Virus record (IMG/VR): IMGVR_UViG_3300015189_000074 | Span: 1 to 36,943 of that record | Length of the DNA stretch: 36,943 bases | Origin: a virus | Reading direction: 5' to 3' (one strand) | In this document: piece after piece, positions 16,520-25,537 of the stretch | How the letters are laid out: each line of letters starts with the position of its first letter | Numbering within the stretch: position 1 is the stretch's first letter | Notes under the pieces: generated by a model | Told to the model about the DNA's origin: nothing | Seen by the model: the letters and a program-made list of their open reading frames with translations, nothing else | The model's database searches: none | Made by a program: the position numbers and the translations under genes

Positions 16520-17488
16520 ATGGCCAAGATAAAGGGTGAGGCGCTGGGGCGGTTGATGGTGGCTGCCGTAGAGGATTTTGTGGCGCGAGCTATATCGGCG
16601 CTGACGCCACGGTTTGAAGCGCTTGAGAATGGGTTGAAGACGCAGCCCGCGGCGGGAGTCAAGGGCGACGCCGGCGACAAAGGCGAACCAGGTGAACCCG
16701 GGCCCAAGGGCGACAAGGGTGATCCTGGCGAAGTGCTCACCGTCAAGGGTGAACAGGGCGAGCCCGGCGTCAAGGGTGAGAAAGGTGACGACGCAACTGT
16801 CGACCCGATCCAGCTGAAGAACATCGTCGACGAGTCGGTCACCGCCGCCGTGGCCAAACTCCCCCAGCCCGTCAACGGCAAAGACGGCCAGGACGGCAAG
16901 CCAGGCGAAAGCATTCACCCCGACACCATCGCCCGCATGATCAACGAACAGGTCGCCGCGGCCGTCGCGAACCTGCCACGCACGCAAGCGGTGGACGGTC
17001 GCGACGGCCGCGATGCCCTGTCCCTGGAGATCCTGCCCGCCATCGACGAGGCGAAGTCATATCCGCGCGGCACGTTCGCCGAACATCGCGGCGGCACTAT
17101 CCGCTCTATTCGCAACACGGATCCCATCACTGACGGCCTCGAGAAAGCCGGCTGGACAGTCGTGGTGAACGGCATTGACAGCGAAACCGAAGTGCCGTCC
17201 GACGAAGGCCGCACGCTCACCCGCACAACCCACTACACCAATGGTCGCCAGCTGGTGCGCACGATCAAAAGCAACGTCGTGCTCGACCGCGGTGTCTGGC
17301 GCGATGGCGAATACCAGGCGGGCGACGGCGTGACGCTTGGCGGCTCATTCTGGATCGCGCAGCGTGTCACCACCGATAAGCCGGAAACATCAGACGCCTG
17401 GCGCCTGGCCGTCAAACGCGGCCGCGACGGCAAGGACGGAAAACCGCCCGAAGCACCCGCCGCATCCACGCCCGTGAGACTCAAATGA
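16520..17488 (+). CDS. Collagen-like phage virion protein
   Basis: A 322-residue protein with Gly-X-Y collagen repeats at about residues 46-71 (GVKGDAGDKGEPGEPGPKGD and following), 77-91, 120-130 and 160-165, and a last block 'GRDGKDGK' near 305-312. The N-terminus is a helix that could form a trimer. Residues about 170-300 look globular, ending in a carbohydrate-binding-like 'YQAGDGVTLGGSFWIAQRVT'. Triple helices of this kind form elongated fibres in other phages; this one likely decorates the head or head-tail joint. It follows the portal gene and overlaps the connector by ATGA. No cysteines are seen in the repeats. Confidence 0.85.
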   Translation: MAKIKGEALGRLMVAAVEDFVARAISALTPRFEALENGLKTQPAAGVKGDAGDKGEPGEPGPKGDKGDPGEVLTVKGEQGEPGVKGEKGDDATVDPIQLKNIVDESVTAAVAKLPQPVNGKDGQDGKPGESIHPDTIARMINEQVAAAVANLPRTQAVDGRDGRDALSLEILPAIDEAKSYPRGTFAEHRGGTIRSIRNTDPITDGLEKAGWTVVVNGIDSETEVPSDEGRTLTRTTHYTNGRQLVRTIKSNVVLDRGVWRDGEYQAGDGVTLGGSFWIAQRVTTDKPETSDAWRLAVKRGRDGKDGKPPEAPAASTPVRLK

Positions 17489-18177
17489 GATTCACCCTGG
17501 AGCGCGTTACCCAGCCGGAATTCGAGCCGGTGACCCTGGAGGAAATGATTCGCCAGGTGCACGAATTCTCCAGCATCGATGAGATCACCCGGGCCGAGCT
17601 CGCCGACCTGATTACCGCCGGCCGCGAATGGGTGGAGGATTACACCGGCCGCGCCCTGGTTGAGCAGACCTGGCGGCTCACGCTGCTCAGCCAGGCGGGG
17701 AGCAATGCCGGCGGCGACGTTGTCGGCGGCCGCAGCGGCCCGGGCCCCGTCAACTATGACTTCTACGAGGGTCAGTGGCGCTGGGGCCGCTATGGTGAGA
17801 TCGTTTTGCCAAAAGCTCCGGCGCTGTCAATTGTCAATATCATTTCAGTGGACCAGGCCGGCGCAGAGACCGCGCTCGGTGCCGCGACTTACGGACTGCG
17901 CGAGGCAGATTCGAAGTGGCCGCGCCTGGTCGCGTTGAACGGCGCCAGCTGGTCCAGCGGGATCACAGGCGATATGCGCATCACCTTTCGCGCCGGCTTC
18001 ACTGATTCGGTCGGCAGTCCGCAGTTGGGTGTGGAACGGATACCGGTGCGTTTCAAGCAGGCCATCAAGCTGCACGCGGAAGCCCATTACGATCGCGACA
18101 AGGATCAAATGGAAAAACTGCTCGCCGCTGCCGAAAACCTGATCCGGCCCGAGCGCTCGGATCTGCAAATTGCGTGA
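17485..18177 (+). CDS. Head-tail connector (gp6-like)
   Basis: A 230-residue protein of the phage connector type. The opening 'TLEEMIRQVHEFSSIDEITR' and 'ELADLITAGREWVEDYTGRAL' are the helices that pack on the portal in gp6-like connectors, followed by beta segments 'IVLPKAPALSIVNIISVDQA' and the C-terminal 'IRPERSDLQI'. It starts by ATGA overlap with the collagen-like gene and ends one base from a reverse-strand gene. Confidence 0.85.
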   Translation: MRFTLERVTQPEFEPVTLEEMIRQVHEFSSIDEITRAELADLITAGREWVEDYTGRALVEQTWRLTLLSQAGSNAGGDVVGGRSGPGPVNYDFYEGQWRWGRYGEIVLPKAPALSIVNIISVDQAGAETALGAATYGLREADSKWPRLVALNGASWSSGITGDMRITFRAGFTDSVGSPQLGVERIPVRFKQAIKLHAEAHYDRDKDQMEKLLAAAENLIRPERSDLQIA

Positions 18178-18178
18178 C

Positions 18179-18367
18179 CTACTTTTTTCCGTAGGGCGGT
18201 ACGTTCATGGCGACAGCGGCGACGGCGAGTGCGATGCTCTTGGGAATTTTATTGGTGCCATTTTCCCAATTGACGATTGACCGGGCCGAGCAGCCGAGTT
18301 GCCTGGCTGCTTCGGCTTGCGACCAGTGAAATCGTTGGCGCAATTCAATAAGTTCGGAGGCGGTCAT
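18179..18367 (-). CDS. Small XRE-type helix-turn-helix protein
   Basis: A 62-residue protein almost entirely made of a helix-turn-helix: 'ELIELRQRFHWSQAEAARQL' then 'GCSARSIVNWENGTNKIPKS'. This is typical of antitoxins and small regulators. It is coupled by ATGA to the 70-residue gene upstream of it on the reverse strand and ends beside the connector gene. The pair stands alone against the late operon, so it has its own promoter. A toxin-antitoxin or moron control role is plausible; I cannot choose. Confidence 0.7.
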   Translation of the reverse strand: MTASELIELRQRFHWSQAEAARQLGCSARSIVNWENGTNKIPKSIALAVAAVAMNVPPYGKK

Positions 18368-18576
18368 TTTTTATGCTCGAGAGCTTCAGATTTCCACAGC
18401 ATATGCTGGTGATGGTCCTGGCGCATCTGATCGGCAATTATGATGGCCAGAGCTTTGCAATTCTTGCCTGCGGCGTTGACCAGGCGGTCAAATAAAACGC
18501 CGTCGATCTTGCCAGCTTCCAGTGCGATCGAAAGGCGGCGCATATCTAAACTGATTTGGCCCGCCTCAATTTGCAC
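18364..18576 (-). CDS. Hypothetical partner of the HTH protein
   Basis: A 70-residue, mostly helical protein ('MRRLSIALEAGKIDGVLFDR', 'NCKALAIIIADQMRQDHHQH'). The start is uncertain: GTG 18574-18576 or ATG 18541-18543, neither with a clear ribosome-binding site. It is transcribed first, then the HTH gene (ATGA overlap). Such order fits a toxin or effector followed by its antitoxin/regulator, but there is no known toxin motif. The region 18577-18616 must hold divergent signals for this and the rightward cargo. Confidence 0.5.
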   Translation of the reverse strand: MQIEAGQISLDMRRLSIALEAGKIDGVLFDRLVNAAGKNCKALAIIIADQMRQDHHQHMLWKSEALEHKK

Positions 18577-18616: not shown

Positions 18617-18757
18617 ATGTTCGCTATTGCCGGCGCACTCGAAGTGCAGATGTTCGCAAATATCGCCCGCCTAAAGCAGGACATGTCGCTAACGCGCCGC
18701 AGTGTGAAAAAGGCGAAGAAGTGCGTGAAGCGTGCCTTGCGTAAAACCAAAAGGTGA
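18617..18757 (+). CDS. 46-residue mini-copy of the tape-measure N-terminus
   Basis: ATG 18617 has GGGAGG upstream. The first part, 'AGALEVQMFANIARLKQDMS', closely matches the start of the tape-measure protein, 'AGKLEVQMFANIARITEDMT', with DNA nearly as similar. It then turns into a basic tail ('KKAKKCVKRALRKTKR') and stops. It opens the cargo block and overlaps the next gene (GTGA). It may be a small protein in its own right or the remains of a duplication; function unknown. Confidence 0.65.
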   Translation: MFAIAGALEVQMFANIARLKQDMSLTRRSVKKAKKCVKRALRKTKR

Positions 18758-19422
18758 TCCTCCAACGCAACGATTTCGACCGCTTCAGCCGCGTGCTGCG
18801 CGGCTGGGCTGGTGACACCGTCGTGCTGCTGGGCGGAGGTCCGTCGCTGACGATCGAGCAGGTGCAGGCCGTCTACGCGCGTCACGCCGCCGACGAGCTC
18901 CGCTGCATCGCCATCAACGACAGCTACCTGCTGGCGCCCTGGGCGGACGTGCTTTACGCAGCGGATCCGCGCTGGCACGGCTGGCATGCGGTGCGCGAAT
19001 CGTTCAAGAGTTTCGGTGGGCTGAAATGCAGCATCCAGAATCCCGGCGCGGATCTGTTTAGCGACAGCGTGCACGTGTTGCGCAATCGCGATCACCCGTA
19101 CCACGGCAGCGGCCTCTCGCTCGATCCTGATGCCATCTCTACCGGCCGCAATGGCGGTTGGCAGGCGCTGAACATCGCGATCCTCGCCGGCGCGCGCAAG
19201 GTCGTATTGCTCGGCTTCGACGGCAAGCCGGCAGCGGATGGCAAAACGCATTTTCACGCGGGCCATCCGACACCGACGCCGTTGGCGGCATACGAAGAAT
19301 ACCGGCGCGCCTTTTCAGCCGGTGAGAACGCGATCAAGGCAGCCGGCGTGCGCGTGATCAATTGCTCGCCCGGATCCGCGATCGATTCGTTCGAAAAGTT
19401 GACATTGGAGGAAGCGCTTTGA
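18754..19422 (+). CDS. MptE/DUF115-like Rossmann protein (glycan-related)
   Basis: A 222-residue protein with 'VVLLGGGPSLTIEQVQAV' near residues 23-40, 'AINDSYLLAPWADVLYAADP' near 52-71 and 'ALNIAILAGARKVVLLGFDG' near 143-162, the pattern of Rossmann-like proteins related to MptE/DUF115 and sialyltransferase-type enzymes. Phage annotations often call them 'norphogenetic protein'. Substrate unknown; nucleotide-sugar or glycan chemistry is likely from neighbours. Starts at GTG 18754 overlapping the upstream stop. A second copy lies at 24151. Confidence 0.7.
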   Translation: MILQRNDFDRFSRVLRGWAGDTVVLLGGGPSLTIEQVQAVYARHAADELRCIAINDSYLLAPWADVLYAADPRWHGWHAVRESFKSFGGLKCSIQNPGADLFSDSVHVLRNRDHPYHGSGLSLDPDAISTGRNGGWQALNIAILAGARKVVLLGFDGKPAADGKTHFHAGHPTPTPLAAYEEYRRAFSAGENAIKAAGVRVINCSPGSAIDSFEKLTLEEAL

Positions 19423-20306
19423 AACGCATTCCGAAACGCATACGCGGTGGGTCCGGCCTGGGCGATTCTCTTTACTTGCGCCCGCTGGTCGATCATTTCA
19501 TCGCTGCCGGCGATACGGTGACGGTGTGCTCGGATCATCCCGAGGTATTCCTGGATTCACGCGCGACGGTCGAACCGTTCAGCCGCGAAAACATCAACGT
19601 GCTGGGACACTACGTGGCCGGCAAGCCGAATCCGGACACCGATCAATGGCAGGACATCTGCGCCAGCGCCGGCACGCCGGGCTTACCGCTGCGCTTCGAT
19701 TGGACTGTGCGCAACCAGGCGCTCGTCGACCGCGTCACGGCGGCCGCCGGCCGGCAACCGATCATCCTGGTGCATGGCGGCCGCACGCCGATGGGCCGCA
19801 CCGATGGCTTCGGCCTGGAGCTGCTGCCGGACCGGCGCGCCTTTGACGCGGTGCTGGCTATGTTGCACGGCTGCCATACCGTGCGTATCGGCAAAGGCGC
19901 GAACCTGTATGCGCTGCCGGTATCTTCCGATCTCTCCGATGAGACATCGGTGTCCGACCTGTTGGACCTGGCCTCGATCTGTGACGGCATGATCGCGCAG
20001 TGTTCGTTTGCGATCCCGCTCGCGGAGGTGTTCGATAAACCGCTGCTCGCGATCTGGGCGGCCGGCGGCATGTGCGCATACCGGCACCCCTATATCAAGT
20101 CGATCACACCCAGGAAGGTATTGAGCAAACTGACCTCTCATTACGTGGTCGACGACTGGCCCGTGGACAAGGTGATGGAGGCGACGTTCCTGTGGAAAAG
20201 CGCAGCAGCGCCGATGGCGTCCGCTGCTCGTGGCGCATCCTACCCTCGTGAGGGGCACGGTATGAATGGTGGTGGGATGCGGGAGGCCGGGGCGTGCGTT
20301 TTATAA
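19419..20306 (+). CDS. GT9/heptosyltransferase-like glycosyltransferase
   Basis: A 295-residue protein starting at TTG 19419, with GGAGG eight bases upstream and a TTGA overlap with the previous gene. 'IRGGSGLGDSLYLRPLVDHF' near residues 8-27 and 'VTVCSDHPEVFLDSRATVEP' are the GT-B N-terminus of the ADP-heptose:LPS glycosyltransferase type, and 'DLLDLASICDGMIAQCSFAI PLAEVF' fits the C-terminal nucleotide-sugar side. It is likely to move a sugar onto a surface or virion glycan. The acidic and basic tail after residue 270 is unusual. The sugar cannot be told from sequence. Confidence 0.7.
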   Translation: MKRIPKRIRGGSGLGDSLYLRPLVDHFIAAGDTVTVCSDHPEVFLDSRATVEPFSRENINVLGHYVAGKPNPDTDQWQDICASAGTPGLPLRFDWTVRNQALVDRVTAAAGRQPIILVHGGRTPMGRTDGFGLELLPDRRAFDAVLAMLHGCHTVRIGKGANLYALPVSSDLSDETSVSDLLDLASICDGMIAQCSFAIPLAEVFDKPLLAIWAAGGMCAYRHPYIKSITPRKVLSKLTSHYVVDDWPVDKVMEATFLWKSAAAPMASAARGASYPREGHGMNGGGMREAGACVL

Positions 20307-20965
20307 CCTTCAACGACGCGGCGGGGCATCTGCGCGGTAAGCGCATCGCCATCGTCGGCAGCGCGCCGACCGTGCTTGAGAACGCGTCCGGCCTCATCGA
20401 TTCGCATGAAGTGGTAGTCCGCGTCAACAACTACAAGGTGAGTGAGGCGGCCGGCTTTCGCACCGACATCTTCTATTCATTTTTCGGCACCTCGATCCGC
20501 AAGACCGCAACTGAGCTGCAGCGCGATGGCGTGTATTTGTGCATGTGCAAGCTGCCCGACAGTAAGCCGCTGGAATCGGAGTGGCACGTGGCGCACAACA
20601 AGCCCGAAGGCATCGACTACCGCTATATCTACCGCAATCGTGCCGCCTGGTGGTTCGGTGACGTGTTTGTGCCAGATGCGGCGCGCTTCCTCCAAAAGTT
20701 TGAATTGCTGGACAAGCACCAGCCGACCACCGGCTTCGCCGCCATTCTCGACGTACTGGCCTGCGAGCCGCGGTCGGTGTTCCTGACTGGCTTCGATTTC
20801 TTCACCTCCGGGCTGCACAACGTCAACGAGCCCTGGCACGAAAAGAAAAACGGCGATCCGATCGGTCACCGGCCGGATCTCGAGGCCGCCTGGCTGAAAG
20901 CGAACGCGCATAAACATCCGCTGGTTTTCGATGCGTCGCTTTCCAAGCTGCTCGCGACCGCCTGA
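20294..20965 (+). CDS. GT29/sialyltransferase-like glycosyltransferase
   Basis: A 223-residue protein starting at GTG 20294, with GGGAGG about nine bases upstream. It carries a sialylmotif-L-like region 'AIVGSAPTVLENASGLIDSH' (about 19-38) followed by 'VVVRVNNYK', and a motif-S-like 'PTTGFAAILDVL' with 'VFLTGFDFF' (about 144-170). This is the fold of family 29 sialyltransferases and related bacterial enzymes that transfer acidic sugars from a CMP donor. The substrate cannot be given. It overlaps the previous gene by 13 bases, so the two enzymes are probably made together. Confidence 0.75.
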   Translation: MRFITFNDAAGHLRGKRIAIVGSAPTVLENASGLIDSHEVVVRVNNYKVSEAAGFRTDIFYSFFGTSIRKTATELQRDGVYLCMCKLPDSKPLESEWHVAHNKPEGIDYRYIYRNRAAWWFGDVFVPDAARFLQKFELLDKHQPTTGFAAILDVLACEPRSVFLTGFDFFTSGLHNVNEPWHEKKNGDPIGHRPDLEAAWLKANAHKHPLVFDASLSKLLATA

Positions 20966-20966
20966 A

Positions 20967-21197
20967 GTGATCACCTGTGCGCATCCGCGCGCGTCTGTGA
21001 TCTTCATCAATCGCCCGATCGATCCCTGGTCTGCGATTGCCGGGCAGCGATCGCTGCAGGCGGGGGAATTCGCCCACGTGGTCTGCGAATGCGGTGAAGC
21101 GTACCTTGGTGTGCCTCGGCATGCGTCGGCCGCTGGCATCCCGGCCTGGGTCACGCGCACGATCGCGCAGGCGAAACGGTTGGCCGGCGTCAGTTAA
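20967..21197 (+). CDS. Small hypothetical cargo protein
   Basis: A 76-residue frame from GTG 20967, one base after the preceding stop, reading MITCAHPRASVIFINRPIDP. It has 'ECGEAYLGVPRHASAAGIPA' with two cysteines in VVCECGEA, but no zinc-site partner is obvious. There is no clear ribosome-binding site, so translation is probably coupled. Function unknown; real gene status moderate. Confidence 0.5.
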   Translation: MITCAHPRASVIFINRPIDPWSAIAGQRSLQAGEFAHVVCECGEAYLGVPRHASAAGIPAWVTRTIAQAKRLAGVS

Positions 21198-21206
21198 GGG
21201 GAAGAC

Positions 21207-21506
21207 ATGGAAGCAGCAACGCAAAACCAACTGCCGATCAAGTCCAAGAACAAGGGCAAGAAAGACGATGTCATCAAGCTGAAGCCGCTGCGCGACAACC
21301 TGGCCGACTTGCTGGTACTCGCCGAAAAGCTGACCGACGCGCGCGACACTTTCAGCGAGAAAGTCAAGGCCGTCGCCAAGCAATCAGGCCTGCAGCCTGG
21401 TGTGGTGAAAAAGCTGGTGAATGCGAAAGCCACCGATCGCTTCGACAAGGCCGCGCGCCAGGTTGAGCAGTTGGCCATCGTCTTCGGCGAGATCGATAAT
21501 TTATGA
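21207..21506 (+). CDS. Hypothetical lysine-rich helical protein
   Basis: A 99-residue protein, MEAATQNQLPIKSKNKGKKD and following, with a good AAGGGGAAG ribosome site. Residues about 25-95 are an all-helical, charged region ('RDNLADLLVLAEKLTDARDT', 'LVNAKATDRFDKAARQVEQL'). It overlaps the next gene by ATGA. It resembles small phage helper proteins near tails, but no family is recognised. Confidence 0.6.
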   Translation: MEAATQNQLPIKSKNKGKKDDVIKLKPLRDNLADLLVLAEKLTDARDTFSEKVKAVAKQSGLQPGVVKKLVNAKATDRFDKAARQVEQLAIVFGEIDNL

Positions 21507-22012
21507 GCGAACTGTTCCGTTACGAAGGCGAGCTCTACCCGGATTACATTCGCCACGGCAATGCGATGCGGTTCATCGCGCCCACAGCCCTGGAGTTCTG
21601 CAAAGGTGAGGGGCTGGATATCGGCGCCGGCCGCTGGCCACTCGCCGGCGCCGTGCCGATCGAGCTGCACCCGGCCGATATCCGGCAGGAAGGCCAGTGT
21701 GCGATGTCCCTGCCGCCGGCCGAATACAACTTCATCTTTTCGTCGCATTGCCTCGAGCACCTGGTAAGTCCGGTCGCTGCGCTGGAGCATTGGAAAACGC
21801 GGTTGCGCGTGGGCGGTGTGCTGTTTCTCTACTTACCGCATCCGGAGATGGGTTACTGGCGGCCTGAGAACTGTCGCAAGCACCTGCACCTTTTCTGGCC
21901 GGCGGACGTGGCAAAAATGCTGCGCGCGCTGGGCTTCGTCGACGTGATTCACGGCGAGCGAGATCTCGCCTGGGGTTTCGCGGTAGTTGGATTTAACGGG
22001 AGAGCAATTTGA
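21503..22012 (+). CDS. SAM-dependent methyltransferase
   Basis: A 169-residue class I methyltransferase. Motif I is 'GLDIGAGRWPL' (residues 37-47), the acidic/active region is 'SSHCLEHL' (80-87), and 'WKTRLRVGGVLFLYLPHPEM' follows, as in the UbiE/Methyltransf_11 group. It would transfer a methyl group from S-adenosylmethionine to a small molecule or sugar; a protein or DNA substrate is not suggested. It overlaps both neighbours by four bases. Confidence 0.85.
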   Translation: MSELFRYEGELYPDYIRHGNAMRFIAPTALEFCKGEGLDIGAGRWPLAGAVPIELHPADIRQEGQCAMSLPPAEYNFIFSSHCLEHLVSPVAALEHWKTRLRVGGVLFLYLPHPEMGYWRPENCRKHLHLFWPADVAKMLRALGFVDVIHGERDLAWGFAVVGFNGRAI

Positions 22013-22611
22013 ACGAACGCATCATCGACGACGGCAACACCGAAGCCCTGGTCGGCGAGATCACCTTCGGGCCCTTCTCCAATCCGCAGCTGAACGCCGT
22101 GCTCAAGCGCTTCGGCAAAACCGCTTTCGGGCGTTCCAGCGTGTGCATGGAATTCGAGAGCTTCCTGCGGCAAATCGGTGTGCGCGGTGGTACTTGCCTG
22201 GAGATCGGCAGCTTCAACGGTATCTCGGGGGTGGTGCTGTCGCAGTTCTTCGATCGCGTCATCTGCGTGAGTGTGGATGACAAGCCGATCCCACTGAAGC
22301 ATGAGATCGTCCATTACCTGGGCATCGCCAACGTCGACTTTATCGACGTGAAAGACAACGCCGAGAAAGATCGCGTGGTCAACGGGCTCGAGTTCGACTT
22401 CTGTTACCAGGACGGCGATCACACCCACGACACGCGCGCCGACTTTGAGCTGGTGAAGCGCTGCGGGCGGGTGCTGTTCCACGAATACTGGCCGCTTCAG
22501 GCGCCGGTGTGGAATCTGGTCAACAGCCTGCCGGCCGACGAAGTCACGCGCGCGCAATTCGATTGCCTGGCGTATTGGCACCGCAACTCGCAACAACACG
22601 CGGGCGCATAA
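22009..22611 (+). CDS. Class I methyltransferase (Methyltransf_24-like)
   Basis: A 200-residue methyltransferase starting at TTG 22009, which overlaps the preceding stop; GGGAGAG lies upstream. 'CLEIGSFNGISGVVLSQFFD' (63-82) is motif I, and 'CYQDGDHTHDTRADFELV' (132-149) is the DGDH-type motif that marks Methyltransf_24/CmcI-like enzymes. These enzymes methylate hydroxyls of sugars and secondary metabolites. It is one of three methyltransferase genes in this block. Confidence 0.8.
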   Translation: MNERIIDDGNTEALVGEITFGPFSNPQLNAVLKRFGKTAFGRSSVCMEFESFLRQIGVRGGTCLEIGSFNGISGVVLSQFFDRVICVSVDDKPIPLKHEIVHYLGIANVDFIDVKDNAEKDRVVNGLEFDFCYQDGDHTHDTRADFELVKRCGRVLFHEYWPLQAPVWNLVNSLPADEVTRAQFDCLAYWHRNSQQHAGA

Positions 22612-22612
22612 G

Positions 22613-23653
22613 ATGGACCGCCTCATCAAACGCTTCGACGCTACCGTCGATGACGATCTGATGCGCTGTGATCAGCGCGGCGTGGCGTACCAGGCGAACA
22701 TGCGTGCCGGTCGGGTCAAGTACGACTCTTCGTACCTGGCCAGGGTCGAAGCCTACGAAGGCGGCGCGATCGCCCAGGCGGTGAATGCCGGGCGCTGCGC
22801 GTTGCTGGCGCGCCATCTCGAGCGGCGTGCCAACGTGTTGGATATCGGCGCCGGCTCCGGCGCCTTCGTCCGGGCCGCGCGCGCGCAAGGTTTCGAAGCG
22901 ATGGGTTTCGAGGTAATCCCGGAGGCAGCCGTGGCGCTGCGGCTGGCCGGACTCTATTCGGAGGAATACACCGGCGCCGATGCGCTGACGCTGTGGGATT
23001 CCCTGGAGCACATGGAGGATCCGGAAAATTATCTGAAGCGGGTGCGCAAGGGTGCGCACGTGTTCGTCTCCCTGCCGATCTTCGCGGACCTGGGCAGGAT
23101 CCGCGAGTCGCGGCACTACCGGCCAGGCGAGCACCTGTTCTATTTCACGCACCAGGGTTTCGTCGACTACATGGCGCTGTACGGTTTCCGCCTGCTGGAG
23201 GCCAGCGCGCACGAAACCGACGCCGGGCGCGAGAACATAGGCGCCTTCGCCTTTTGCCGCGACTTGCCGGACTTCGGTGATCACGTTGTGCTCTACCGCG
23301 AAATGCACTCAACGCGCTTTTACGGCAGCTCAGCCACGGAGCTGCACCTGGCCACGATCGCGTCCGTGGTCAAGGCCCGGGCCCCGCGCACGATCCTCGA
23401 TTACGGCTGCGGCCGCAGTGACCTGGCTGCGCACTTCTGGCTCGATGGCGCGCGCCGCATCGAACGTTTCGACCCGGCTATCCCGACCTACAAGACCATG
23501 CCAGCGGGGCGGTTCGACCTGGTGCTGGCCTGCGACGTACTCGAACATATTCCGATGTCGGGTGTTGATCGGGTGCCGCGGTGTTCACCATCAGCACCAA
23601 GCCGGCGCGGGCCAAGTTGCCGGACGGCCGCAATGCACACGTCACGCTGTTGA
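22613..23653 (+). CDS. Two-domain methyltransferase, frameshifted in the second domain
   Basis: The first domain (residues about 1-225) is a complete class I methyltransferase with 'VLDIGAGSGAFVRAARAQGF' (75-94) and 'DALTLWDSLEHMEDP' (123-137). A second starts with 'TILDYGCGRSDLAAHFW' (260-276) and reaches 'LVLACDVLEHIPMSGVDRV' at residues 303-321. From there the frame turns into a Ser/Arg/Pro-rich tail ending at 23653. The true remainder is in the next frame (23581-23778). A short deletion of a length not divisible by three, near 23575-23578, explains the break. The starting ATG follows the upstream stop by one base. Confidence 0.75.
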   Translation: MDRLIKRFDATVDDDLMRCDQRGVAYQANMRAGRVKYDSSYLARVEAYEGGAIAQAVNAGRCALLARHLERRANVLDIGAGSGAFVRAARAQGFEAMGFEVIPEAAVALRLAGLYSEEYTGADALTLWDSLEHMEDPENYLKRVRKGAHVFVSLPIFADLGRIRESRHYRPGEHLFYFTHQGFVDYMALYGFRLLEASAHETDAGRENIGAFAFCRDLPDFGDHVVLYREMHSTRFYGSSATELHLATIASVVKARAPRTILDYGCGRSDLAAHFWLDGARRIERFDPAIPTYKTMPAGRFDLVLACDVLEHIPMSGVDRVPRCSPSAPSRRGPSCRTAAMHTSRC

Positions 23654-23778
23654 CGCATGCCGAGTGGACGCGCTGGGTCAAAGATGTGTTCCGCACGGTG
23701 GAGGTCATGCCGTCAGCGTGGGAGCACGAACTGACCCTTCTGGCGGTCGATCCGCATGCATCGGAAAAGCAGGCATGA
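23581..23778 (+). pseudogene. Displaced C-terminal part of the two-domain methyltransferase
   Basis: From GTG 23581 the reading 'FTISTKPARAKLPDGRNAHV', then 'EWTRWVKDVFRTVEVMPSAW' and 'ELTLLAVDP' continues the second methyltransferase domain of the gene before it. The stop overlaps the start of the head-closure gene (ATGA), which suggests the frame was once the end of a coupled gene. Treated as a fragment, but translation from GTG cannot be ruled out. Confidence 0.65.
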
Positions 23779-24143
23779 ATACCGGTCGCCAGCGTCAGAT
23801 CACCGTAGAGCGGAAAGTGGTCACGCAGGATCCGCTGTACGGCACCGAGATCATCAGCTGGGCGCCACTGGTTGCGCTGCCGGGCAGCCCGGTGGTGGCC
23901 GAGCGCTTTTACGCCGAAGTGCAGGACGTGCTGCCCAGCCGCGCCGAGAGCGTGAAGATGGGCCTCGATGTCGCGCGCAACCAGGTGCGGGTGCGCATGC
24001 GCTGGCGTGACGATATCGACTCGTCGATGCGCATCACGGTTCATGGGGATAGCGACCAGGTCATGCAGATCATCGCCGGCCCGGCCGAGATCGAAGGCCG
24101 TAAACAACGCATCGAAATGATGTGCGAAAAAATTTCATCGTGA
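23775..24143 (+). CDS. Head closure / head-tail joining protein
   Basis: A 122-residue protein, MNTGRQRQITVERKVVTQDP, with 'SWAPLVALPGSPVVAERFYA' and 'VRVRMRWRDDIDSSMRITVH', the beta-rich pattern of phage head-tail joining (SPP1 gp16/HK97 gp7-like) adaptors. It lies inside the cargo block, between the two-domain methyltransferase and the second DUF115-like gene, though it belongs to the structural genes. ATG 23775 overlaps the upstream stop. The longer open frame upstream is shadow. Confidence 0.75.
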   Translation: MNTGRQRQITVERKVVTQDPLYGTEIISWAPLVALPGSPVVAERFYAEVQDVLPSRAESVKMGLDVARNQVRVRMRWRDDIDSSMRITVHGDSDQVMQIIAGPAEIEGRKQRIEMMCEKISS

Positions 24144-24150
24144 GGATCAT

Positions 24151-24774
24151 ATGACCACTGCCTGGACCATCGAGAAAATTTGGGAAGGCGAGACCGTCGC
24201 CATCCTCGGCAACGGCCCCGCCATGACCGAGGAACTGGCCGACGAAGCGATCGGGCGCGGCTACAGGACTATCGCCGTCAACCGCGCCGTGAAGTACGCG
24301 CCCAGCGCCGATATGTTCGTCGCGCTGGATCCGCACCGCGAGCATTGGGCCGAGGTTGAGCACTTTGCCGGCATCAAGATCGTCGGCGTCGAGAGCGACC
24401 AGGATTTCCTCGAAGACGCGCACTACGCCGGCATGTTCTATGAGCGGGTCGAGATCGGTGCCAACCATGTCATCGAGATCCGCAATAACTACCTGGCCGC
24501 TATGCGTATCGCGGCCCGTTGCGGCGCGTCCAAGATCGTGTTGCTGGGCTTGGATGTGGAGGCCTATCAGCGCAAAGTCGACGATTGCGATTTTCACGGG
24601 CTCGCCGAAGGCATCGCCCAGATCGCCGCCGAGCTCCGTGCCGCCGGGGTCGAGGTCGAGCATCCCGACCCGCTCCCGTCCGCCGACGTGGTGGCCGTGC
24701 AGAAAGTTGAAGAAAAAACGCCGCGTTTCGTTTCCAGGCATTCGCCGGCGCCAGGGGAAATCGAGGAATCCTGA
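24151..24774 (+). CDS. Second MptE/DUF115-like Rossmann protein
   Basis: A 207-residue protein with 'TVAILGNGPAMTEELADEAI' (about 14-33), 'IAVNRAVKYAPSADMFVALD' (42-61) and 'ASKIVLLGLDVEAYQRKVDD' (127-146), a distant relative of the protein at 18754. Like it, it is expected to act on a nucleotide-linked or glycan substrate. It has a GAGGATC ribosome site. The C-terminal 30 residues are proline/charge-rich. It follows the head-closure gene and overlaps the next by TGATG. The second copy frames the structural gene between cargo parts. Confidence 0.65.
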   Translation: MTTAWTIEKIWEGETVAILGNGPAMTEELADEAIGRGYRTIAVNRAVKYAPSADMFVALDPHREHWAEVEHFAGIKIVGVESDQDFLEDAHYAGMFYERVEIGANHVIEIRNNYLAAMRIAARCGASKIVLLGLDVEAYQRKVDDCDFHGLAEGIAQIAAELRAAGVEVEHPDPLPSADVVAVQKVEEKTPRFVSRHSPAPGEIEES

Positions 24775-25037
24775 TGGACGAGAATGTCAGCGTCGAGGCA
24801 CTCGAATCCATCTTCGAATCGGTCAAGGTCGCGCGGCTGCGCCCGGGCGATATCCTCATCTATCGCAGCCTGCAGCGCCTGAACGATCGCCAGCGCACGC
24901 ATATGTCCGCGCTGCTGGATAAACTATTCCCCGGCTTCGATTCGATCCTGCTCGAAGACGGCGAAGACATCGCGGTGCTGCGACCGGAGCCGGGCTTGCT
25001 GGGGCGGTTGTTCGGCAAACTGCGCGGGGCACGCTGA
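24774..25037 (+). CDS. Hypothetical protein at the end of the cargo block
   Basis: An 87-residue acidic-basic protein, MDENVSVEALESIFESVKVA and following, with 'LNDRQRTHMSALLDKLFPGF' and a basic end 'GLLGRLFGKLRGAR'. It is coupled at both ends by TGATG overlaps. No recognised family. The C-terminal helix could be amphipathic. Confidence 0.55.
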   Translation: MDENVSVEALESIFESVKVARLRPGDILIYRSLQRLNDRQRTHMSALLDKLFPGFDSILLEDGEDIAVLRPEPGLLGRLFGKLRGAR

Positions 25038-25537
25038 TGGCCGACGAATTCGTCGTCAAGGGACTCGATAAACTGAATGAGTTCCTGCAGCAGCTGCCGG
25101 TCAAGATTGAAAAGAACGTCCTGCGGGGCAGTCTGCGCGCCGGCATGCGCGTGGTGCTGCCGGCAGCCGCAGCGAAAATTCACAACGTATCCGGTGAGCT
25201 GGCCAAGGGTCTCAGGATCCGCACGCGCGCCAAAGGCGGCACAGTGACGGCGGTAGTCAAGGCCACCGGCCCGCACGCCTCGATCGCGCACCTAGTCGAA
25301 TTCGGCACCAGTGCGCATCGGATCAACGCCAAATCCGGCGGGTGGTTGTCCCTGGGCGGCTTGTTCGCCAAATCGGTGGAGCACCCGGGTGCCGAGCCGC
25401 ATCCGTTCATGCGTCCGGCACTCGACCAGGAAGCGCGCAACGCCGTCGTCGCCTCGGCCGAATACATGAAGCAACGGCTGGCTACCAAGGAAGGGTTGGA
25501 CACAGCCGATATCGTCATCGATGGGGATAGCGCGTGA
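25037..25537 (+). CDS. Tail component (HK97 gp10-like)
   Basis: A 166-residue protein of the HK97 gp10-like head-tail/tail-terminator family. The family motifs are 'VKGLDKLNEFLQQLPVKIEK', 'LRAGMRVVLPAAAAKI', then 'HASIAHLVEFGTSAHRINA' and 'PHPFMRPALDQEARNAVVAS'. It helps join the tail to the head. It starts at ATG 25037 with a TGATG overlap and ends with a GTGA overlap. Confidence 0.88.
   Translation: MADEFVVKGLDKLNEFLQQLPVKIEKNVLRGSLRAGMRVVLPAAAAKIHNVSGELAKGLRIRTRAKGGTVTAVVKATGPHASIAHLVEFGTSAHRINAKSGGWLSLGGLFAKSVEHPGAEPHPFMRPALDQEARNAVVASAEYMKQRLATKEGLDTADIVIDGDSA

Follow-up and report, generated by a model that had tools for sequence, protein, structure and literature searches.

The 36,943-nt stretch analysed here (the window) is an uncultivated bacterial virus record, IMGVR_UViG_3300015189_000074. 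Its plus strand carries a late gene cluster of siphovirus type: terminase, capsid, portal, a protein with collagen-like repeats, connector, head-closure protein, gp10-like neck protein, tape measure and tail fibre. Between the connector (Ad1) and the gp10-like gene lies the subject of this report, a cassette of predicted sugar-transferring and methylating enzymes that encloses the head-closure gene (Hc1). An initial annotation had listed here a GT9-like gene, a GT29-like gene, the closure gene, two DUF115 genes and three methyltransferase genes; all are present, in order and on the plus strand (Table 1).

Most adjacent cargo genes share a four-base overlap (TTGA/ATGA) or abut; the head-closure gene starts just inside the 3′ end of the third methyltransferase reading frame, which places the closure gene in the same overlap chain. 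Promoter- and terminator-like patterns were not in excess in the block when compared with shuffles. Because the genes overlap or abut and this excess is lacking, the simplest reading is that the block belongs to the late transcript; the glycosyltransferase genes lie coupled on the virion-gene strand, a layout that predicts co-transcription with the head genes. The earlier description of the block as wholly coupled and rightward needs adjustment: the named genes do run rightward, but coupling holds at most junctions, not all, and a leftward pair of XRE-type genes precedes the block.

Table 1. Features of the cassette and its surroundings (window coordinates)
Feature	Position	Strand	Basis or remark
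Portal-adjacent protein with short collagen-like repeats	16520-17488		
gp6-like head-tail connector (Ad1), left border	17485..18177	+	phrog_442 head-tail adaptor, 1.1e-12
XRE-type regulator and 70-aa partner, two overlapping genes	18179-18576	-	between connector and glycan block
46-codon open reading frame (ORF) that repeats the N-terminus of the tape measure; no part of the glycan set	18617-18757	+	51% identity over 43 aa
First DUF115/phrog_4603 protein, GT42-like	18754..19422	+	phrog_4603, 1e-34
GT9-like (heptosyltransferase-fold) enzyme	19419..20306	+	AlphaFold and Foldseek; GxGD motif
GT29-like (sialyltransferase-fold) enzyme; L, S, III and VS motif residues	20294..20965	+	PF00777, AlphaFold, Foldseek, motif columns
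Small ORF, no relatives found	20931..21197	+	
Small ORF, no relatives found	21207..21506	+	weak, sub-threshold library matches
S-adenosylmethionine (SAM)-dependent methyltransferase (first)	21503..22012	+	PF13489, 4.5e-9
Probable SAM-dependent methyltransferase (second)	22009..22611	+	PF13578, 0.012; phrog_15516, 0.0097; weak
Two-domain methyltransferase (third), frameshifted	22613..23653	+	PF13489, 5e-23; phrog_6564, 3e-45
Head closure/head completion protein (Hc1)	23775..24143	+	PF05521, 3.6e-11
Second DUF115/phrog_4603 protein, GT42-like	24151..24774	+	phrog_4603, 6e-8; PF01973, 0.0013
gp10-like neck protein, right border	25037..25537	+	phrog_5, 2.7e-19

The predicted enzymes

Enzymes of the GT29 fold are best known from eukaryotes. 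The window's GT29-like protein scores below the curated cut-off of PF00777 (18.4 bits against 23; E=0.0015); the same model matches 33 of 71 relatives at E<=0.01, the best at 1.3e-8. Its AlphaFold model (predicted local distance difference test, pLDDT, 95.7) yields 35 Foldseek matches at E<=0.001, every one a GT29 or GT42 sialyltransferase (2wml at 7e-7), and comparison with mammalian ST3Gal1 gives a Z of 14.2. Across the 71 sequences T146-G147-F148, D168, H175, H192 and E197 are invariant; the columns that we equate by eye with the named L-, S-, III- and VS-type sialylmotif residues, H192xxxxE197 among them, vary little or not at all. Fold matches and motif residues together bear out the initial annotation, which had noticed sialylmotif-like regions, and the predicted assignment is strong. 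A phage-borne GT29 branch with apparently intact sialylmotif residues is interesting in itself, regardless of its donor.

For the GT9-like protein there was no match at E<=0.01 in Pfam or PHROG, and none in NCBIfam or among PDB sequences. Its model (pLDDT 96.4) retrieves as top Foldseek match WaaF (heptosyltransferase II; 1psw, 9e-9), followed by a Veillonella GT9 protein, TibC and WaaC, and a GxGD motif is invariant in 65 sequences. This assignment, modelled as it is, is also strong as to fold; the name is kept at ‘GT9-like’ because the template-modelling scores are moderate (about 0.5-0.66) and no curated sequence model recognises the protein.

The two DUF115 proteins are present as first noted, but their label ‘MptE-like’ needs correction. 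PF01973 gives them 13.5 and 18.9 bits, below its curated cut-off of 34.6, and on these scores a pterin-kinase reading of the window proteins was rejected. Searched against the PDB, the family profile has its best eight matches all in GT42 (CstII, 2x63, at 1.1e-4), and it aligns to the GT29-like profile with 96.5% probability; for both reasons these proteins are, by profile, nearer to the GT42 sialyltransferases CstI and CstII than to the MptE pterin kinase. One might still suppose that the DUF115 and GT29-like proteins alike are MptE-type, pterin-kinase-like enzymes and not transferases, since the Pfam name of DUF115 says so (36 of 67 family members) and M. jannaschii HPPK has the same fold (Z 12.4). 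This is barely credible when GT42 heads the sequence matches, the HxxxxE motif is invariant, the best 35 fold matches of the GT29-like protein are sialyltransferases, and a partner of GT9 fold nearly always adjoins the GT29-like gene.

The three methyltransferase genes are likewise in place, the third in damaged form. With a profile made from the second, homologues are recovered from many relatives. In the third, alignment with intact two-domain relatives locates a frameshift at ~23560, in the second domain, with roughly a dozen residues missing; the domain resumes in another frame at 23569-23778. The frameshift may be a real mutation or an assembly error. As the profiles labelled MT6, MT7 and MT8 may cross-match, only counts of methyltransferases are used here. 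In one relative a gene that looks by eye like a sulfotransferase (L065:4014-4640) sits between two cassette methyltransferases, and may hint at a sulfated variant.

Recurrence, exchange and known counterparts

The initial annotation had suggested looking for the cassette in other phages, and the observation proves wider than it knew: the cassette is conserved in dozens of uncultivated phages. Alignment-based scans found the GT29-like gene on 75 viral contigs and on four contigs from metagenome-assembled genomes (MAGs), three of them from Betaproteobacteria; for the latter the 71-sequence alignment was needed, an initial scan with three GT29-like sequences having given zero matches. In all, 77 distinct loci, viral or prophage, carry it. 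Going upstream from GT29, the first gene that could be identified is GT9 in 70 of these (the rest are six contig ends and one DUF115 gene); going downstream, it is a methyltransferase in 74. Because the same set recurs in so many distinct loci, the cassette is real and not a chance assembly.

In 71 of the 77 loci the strand of the cassette also carries head, neck or tail genes. Three of the other six, one of which is podovirus-like, have it next to terminase, portal, head-tail adaptor or capsid genes that belong to other families; L032, L037 and L038 are unplaced relative to head genes. Where the site can be placed, it is the Ad1-Hc1 interval in 17 loci, the Hc1-gp10 interval in 18, before Ad1 in seven and after gp10 in one, with six changes of site on the GT29 tree. 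In several close pairs omega in the cassette genes is about 0.04-0.15, like that of the structural genes, and indicates purifying selection. No further gene family could be tied to the cassette, the recurrent companions looking like tail and head genes. One MAG contig, of 88.7 kb, has host-like genes near both ends and an integrase-like gene, as judged by eye from its ORFs.

Exchange becomes visible in comparison phages drawn by their portal protein, independently of the cassette. In these the same stretch may be empty, carry the complete triad, or carry DUF115 together with different cargo. In L128 that cargo includes a GT8-family enzyme besides further genes; in L131 a DUF115-led block in the closure-gp10 interval has a GDPD-family protein (L131:14400-15248; PF03009, 4e-20). 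On a portal tree of 61 phages, covering both samples, the presence of DUF115 changes at least 10 times and that of the triad seven times, six of these forced by well-supported branches. L044, which has the triad, is the fully supported sister of L227, which has DUF115 alone. Between L024 and L099 the portals are 91% identical, against 56% for GT9 and 63% for GT29. The cassette is thus swapped, lost or replaced between sister phages, a pattern that by analogy recalls antigen loci.

The first reading had been aware of no described system with such a set in this position. For the GT9+GT29 version that stands: it is unseen in 50,697 cultivated phage records, where searches with the block DNA and with the GT9 and GT29 proteins were both empty, and a literature search found no paper on it (weak evidence of absence). 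Partial counterparts are nevertheless known. D3-like Pseudomonas phages (D3 orf7/12/13, PAJU2 gp10-12, PMG1) carry DUF115/phrog_4603, GT9-like and methyltransferase genes among the connector, closure and gp10 genes; D3 orf12 and PAJU2 gp11 match the GT9 profile, genes of D14O, D14Q and D14C are annotated as GT9, and the methyltransferase is related to the window's third one. They differ in having no GT29-like gene and a single methyltransferase, and in D3 the DUF115 gene precedes the connector. In the head-to-neck island of Tetraselmis viridis virus S20, the stretch from capsid to Hc1 holds two genes of phrog_4603, a pair annotated as glycosyltransferases, and a methyltransferase gene; this set is known by annotation, and gives no GT9-like or GT29-like profile match. 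P1 (pmgO/pmgP/pmgQ) and P7 (hdmB/hdmC/hdmD) have a phrog_4603 protein with an annotated glycosyltransferase in the late morphogenetic operon, at a site other than between neck genes and with no GT29-like gene. D3, PAJU2 and P1 are tractable, and their partial versions would allow direct experiments on stability, adsorption and escape from recognition.

To our knowledge, virion glycosylation by phage-encoded enzymes has so far been shown in a few mycobacteriophages. In Che8 and others, glycans are reported to be placed on capsid and tail proteins by transferases that the phages encode (Freeman et al. 2023, cited in PMC11256854 and PMC12619734); the hosts are different, and the modification is established there by experiment, here suggested by genes. 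In the related mycobacteriophage Maravista the glycosyltransferase genes are found towards the genome's 3′ end, away from the head genes (PMC11256854). TibC-type protein heptosyltransferases, which transfer heptose to protein, share the GT9 fold; they are cellular, dodecameric and directed to autotransporters, with about 370-390 residues against 262 in the phage model (PMC4358343).

Donors, acceptor and rival readings

Sugar donors would have to come from the host. The CMP-sugar synthetase family (PF02348) and NeuB were absent from 25 virus records, positive controls being detected. Each of three betaproteobacterial MAGs has one PF02348 gene, KdsB, the synthetase of CMP-Kdo (cytidine monophosphate-3-deoxy-D-manno-octulosonic acid); NeuB was found in none of the three, which are incomplete. 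Domain II of ADP-heptose (adenosine diphosphate-heptose) synthase is over or almost at the cut-off in two of them and weak in the third. The lack of NeuB in the host MAGs favours a CMP-sugar other than sialic acid, such as CMP-Kdo; taken with the phage records and with KdsB, it points to host lipopolysaccharide (LPS) precursors, of which the likeliest are CMP-Kdo for the GT29/GT42-like enzymes and ADP-heptose for the GT9-like one. None of the cassette proteins contains a segment hydrophobic enough for a predicted membrane span.

These elements suggest the following scenario. Synthesised late along with the proteins of head and neck, the GT42-like, GT9-like and GT29-like transferases would build a short glycan in the cytoplasm from LPS precursors; the methyltransferases would cap it; a virion protein, and not LPS, would accept it; exchange of alleles would then diversify the particle surface, for example in escape from recognition or in the tuning of adsorption. 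The late, virion-linked setting is well supported. That the locus is an exchangeable, late-made cassette whose product, a glycan built from host LPS precursors and capped with methyl groups, decorates the virion we consider slightly better than an even bet, and the same holds for a virion protein as acceptor, which is favoured by the late coupling and by the fact that the cassette stays linked to head genes though these differ in type. A wider claim is less likely than not: that tailed phages of Gram-negative bacteria coat their heads with a methyl-capped CMP-Kdo/ADP-heptose glycan and swap alleles like O-antigen loci, the cassette being a widespread, exchangeable ‘virion serotype’ locus. If true, phages of Gram-negative bacteria would commonly have glycan-coated particles.

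Several points weigh against decoration of the virion. No acceptor for the glycan was identified. Since the LPS inner core is assembled from these donors on the same face of the membrane, LPS too may be the acceptor; incompleteness of the MAGs leaves room for sialic-acid donors; and the third methyltransferase is damaged in the window. The cargo stretch is also a moron site, with the XRE pair in the window and an annotated anti-CRISPR in phage D14C, and a region that takes in morons weakens the argument from position. Finally, P1 pmgO, pmgP and pmgQ are reported not to be needed for plaque formation (PMC10695390, which refers to the knockout survey PMC9024508), a dispensability that fits decoration and does not demonstrate it.

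The same enzymes might instead act late on the host surface, adding heptose- or Kdo-type, methylated sugars to the LPS inner core, so that progeny avoid debris or competitors are shut out. The resemblance of the GT9-like fold to WaaC/WaaF speaks for this, as do a compartment and donors shared with LPS core synthesis in hosts that have KdsB. We think it rather unlikely: across unrelated phages the cassette keeps to head genes and not to early or lysis genes, a surface change that starts late would have little time to take effect, and neither acyltransferase nor flippase was recognised in the block. Cargo of the moron type, tolerated in an insertion-prone neck region and expressed in the lysogen to alter host surface or phage resistance, is decidedly less probable again, although a prophage-like context in a betaproteobacterial MAG contig, the XRE pair upstream, with related regulators in L113, L018/L019 and L192, and the anti-CRISPR annotated in the same interval of D14C all suit it. 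The genes share a strand with the head genes and are coupled to them, no promoter or terminator signal of their own rises above chance, and a set of three to six genes is kept in order at several sites within head clusters. It is because the cassette keeps with head genes across unrelated phages that a late, virion-linked role is favoured over lysogenic conversion; that part of the initial annotation is supported, and between virion and host surface, which it left side by side and which none of the computed results tells apart, we infer the former. Modification of phage DNA bases, by glycosylation or methylation, is very unlikely. Hypermodified phage DNA does involve glycosyltransferases and methyltransferases (Pyle et al. 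2024, cited in PMC12619734), but no member of the thymidylate synthase/dCMP hydroxymethylase family (PF00303) turned up in 19 records, which include many fragments, the genes are late in position, and the folds match sugar transferases of glycoconjugates. A TET/JBP search whose positive control was not detected is counted neither for nor against.

Neighbouring genes and block borders

Upstream of the connector, the portal-adjacent protein belongs to a family whose Gly-X-Y repeat length is highly variable, up to 80 triplets in L116 and zero in close relatives. Cargo-bearing phages have the longer repeats (Mann-Whitney p=0.0006), and the protein was considered as a glycan acceptor, a reading that found no support: independent pairs on the portal tree show no association (about one the same way, three opposite), and the triad phages L022, L023 and L044 are without repeats.

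The XRE pair is leftward inside a rightward late cluster, and the relatives of its first regulator mentioned above lie in the cargo zone of their phages. The anti-CRISPR annotated in D14C (Pseudomonas phage vB_PaeS-D14C; L236:3836-4195) adjoins a GT9-like gene, between closure and gp10. Within the block, the stretch 20966-21506 consists of the two small ORFs without identified relatives. At the left edge of the cassette, the ORF at 18617-18757 repeats the N-terminus of the tape measure (27658 onward), and this copy is a possible recombination scar.

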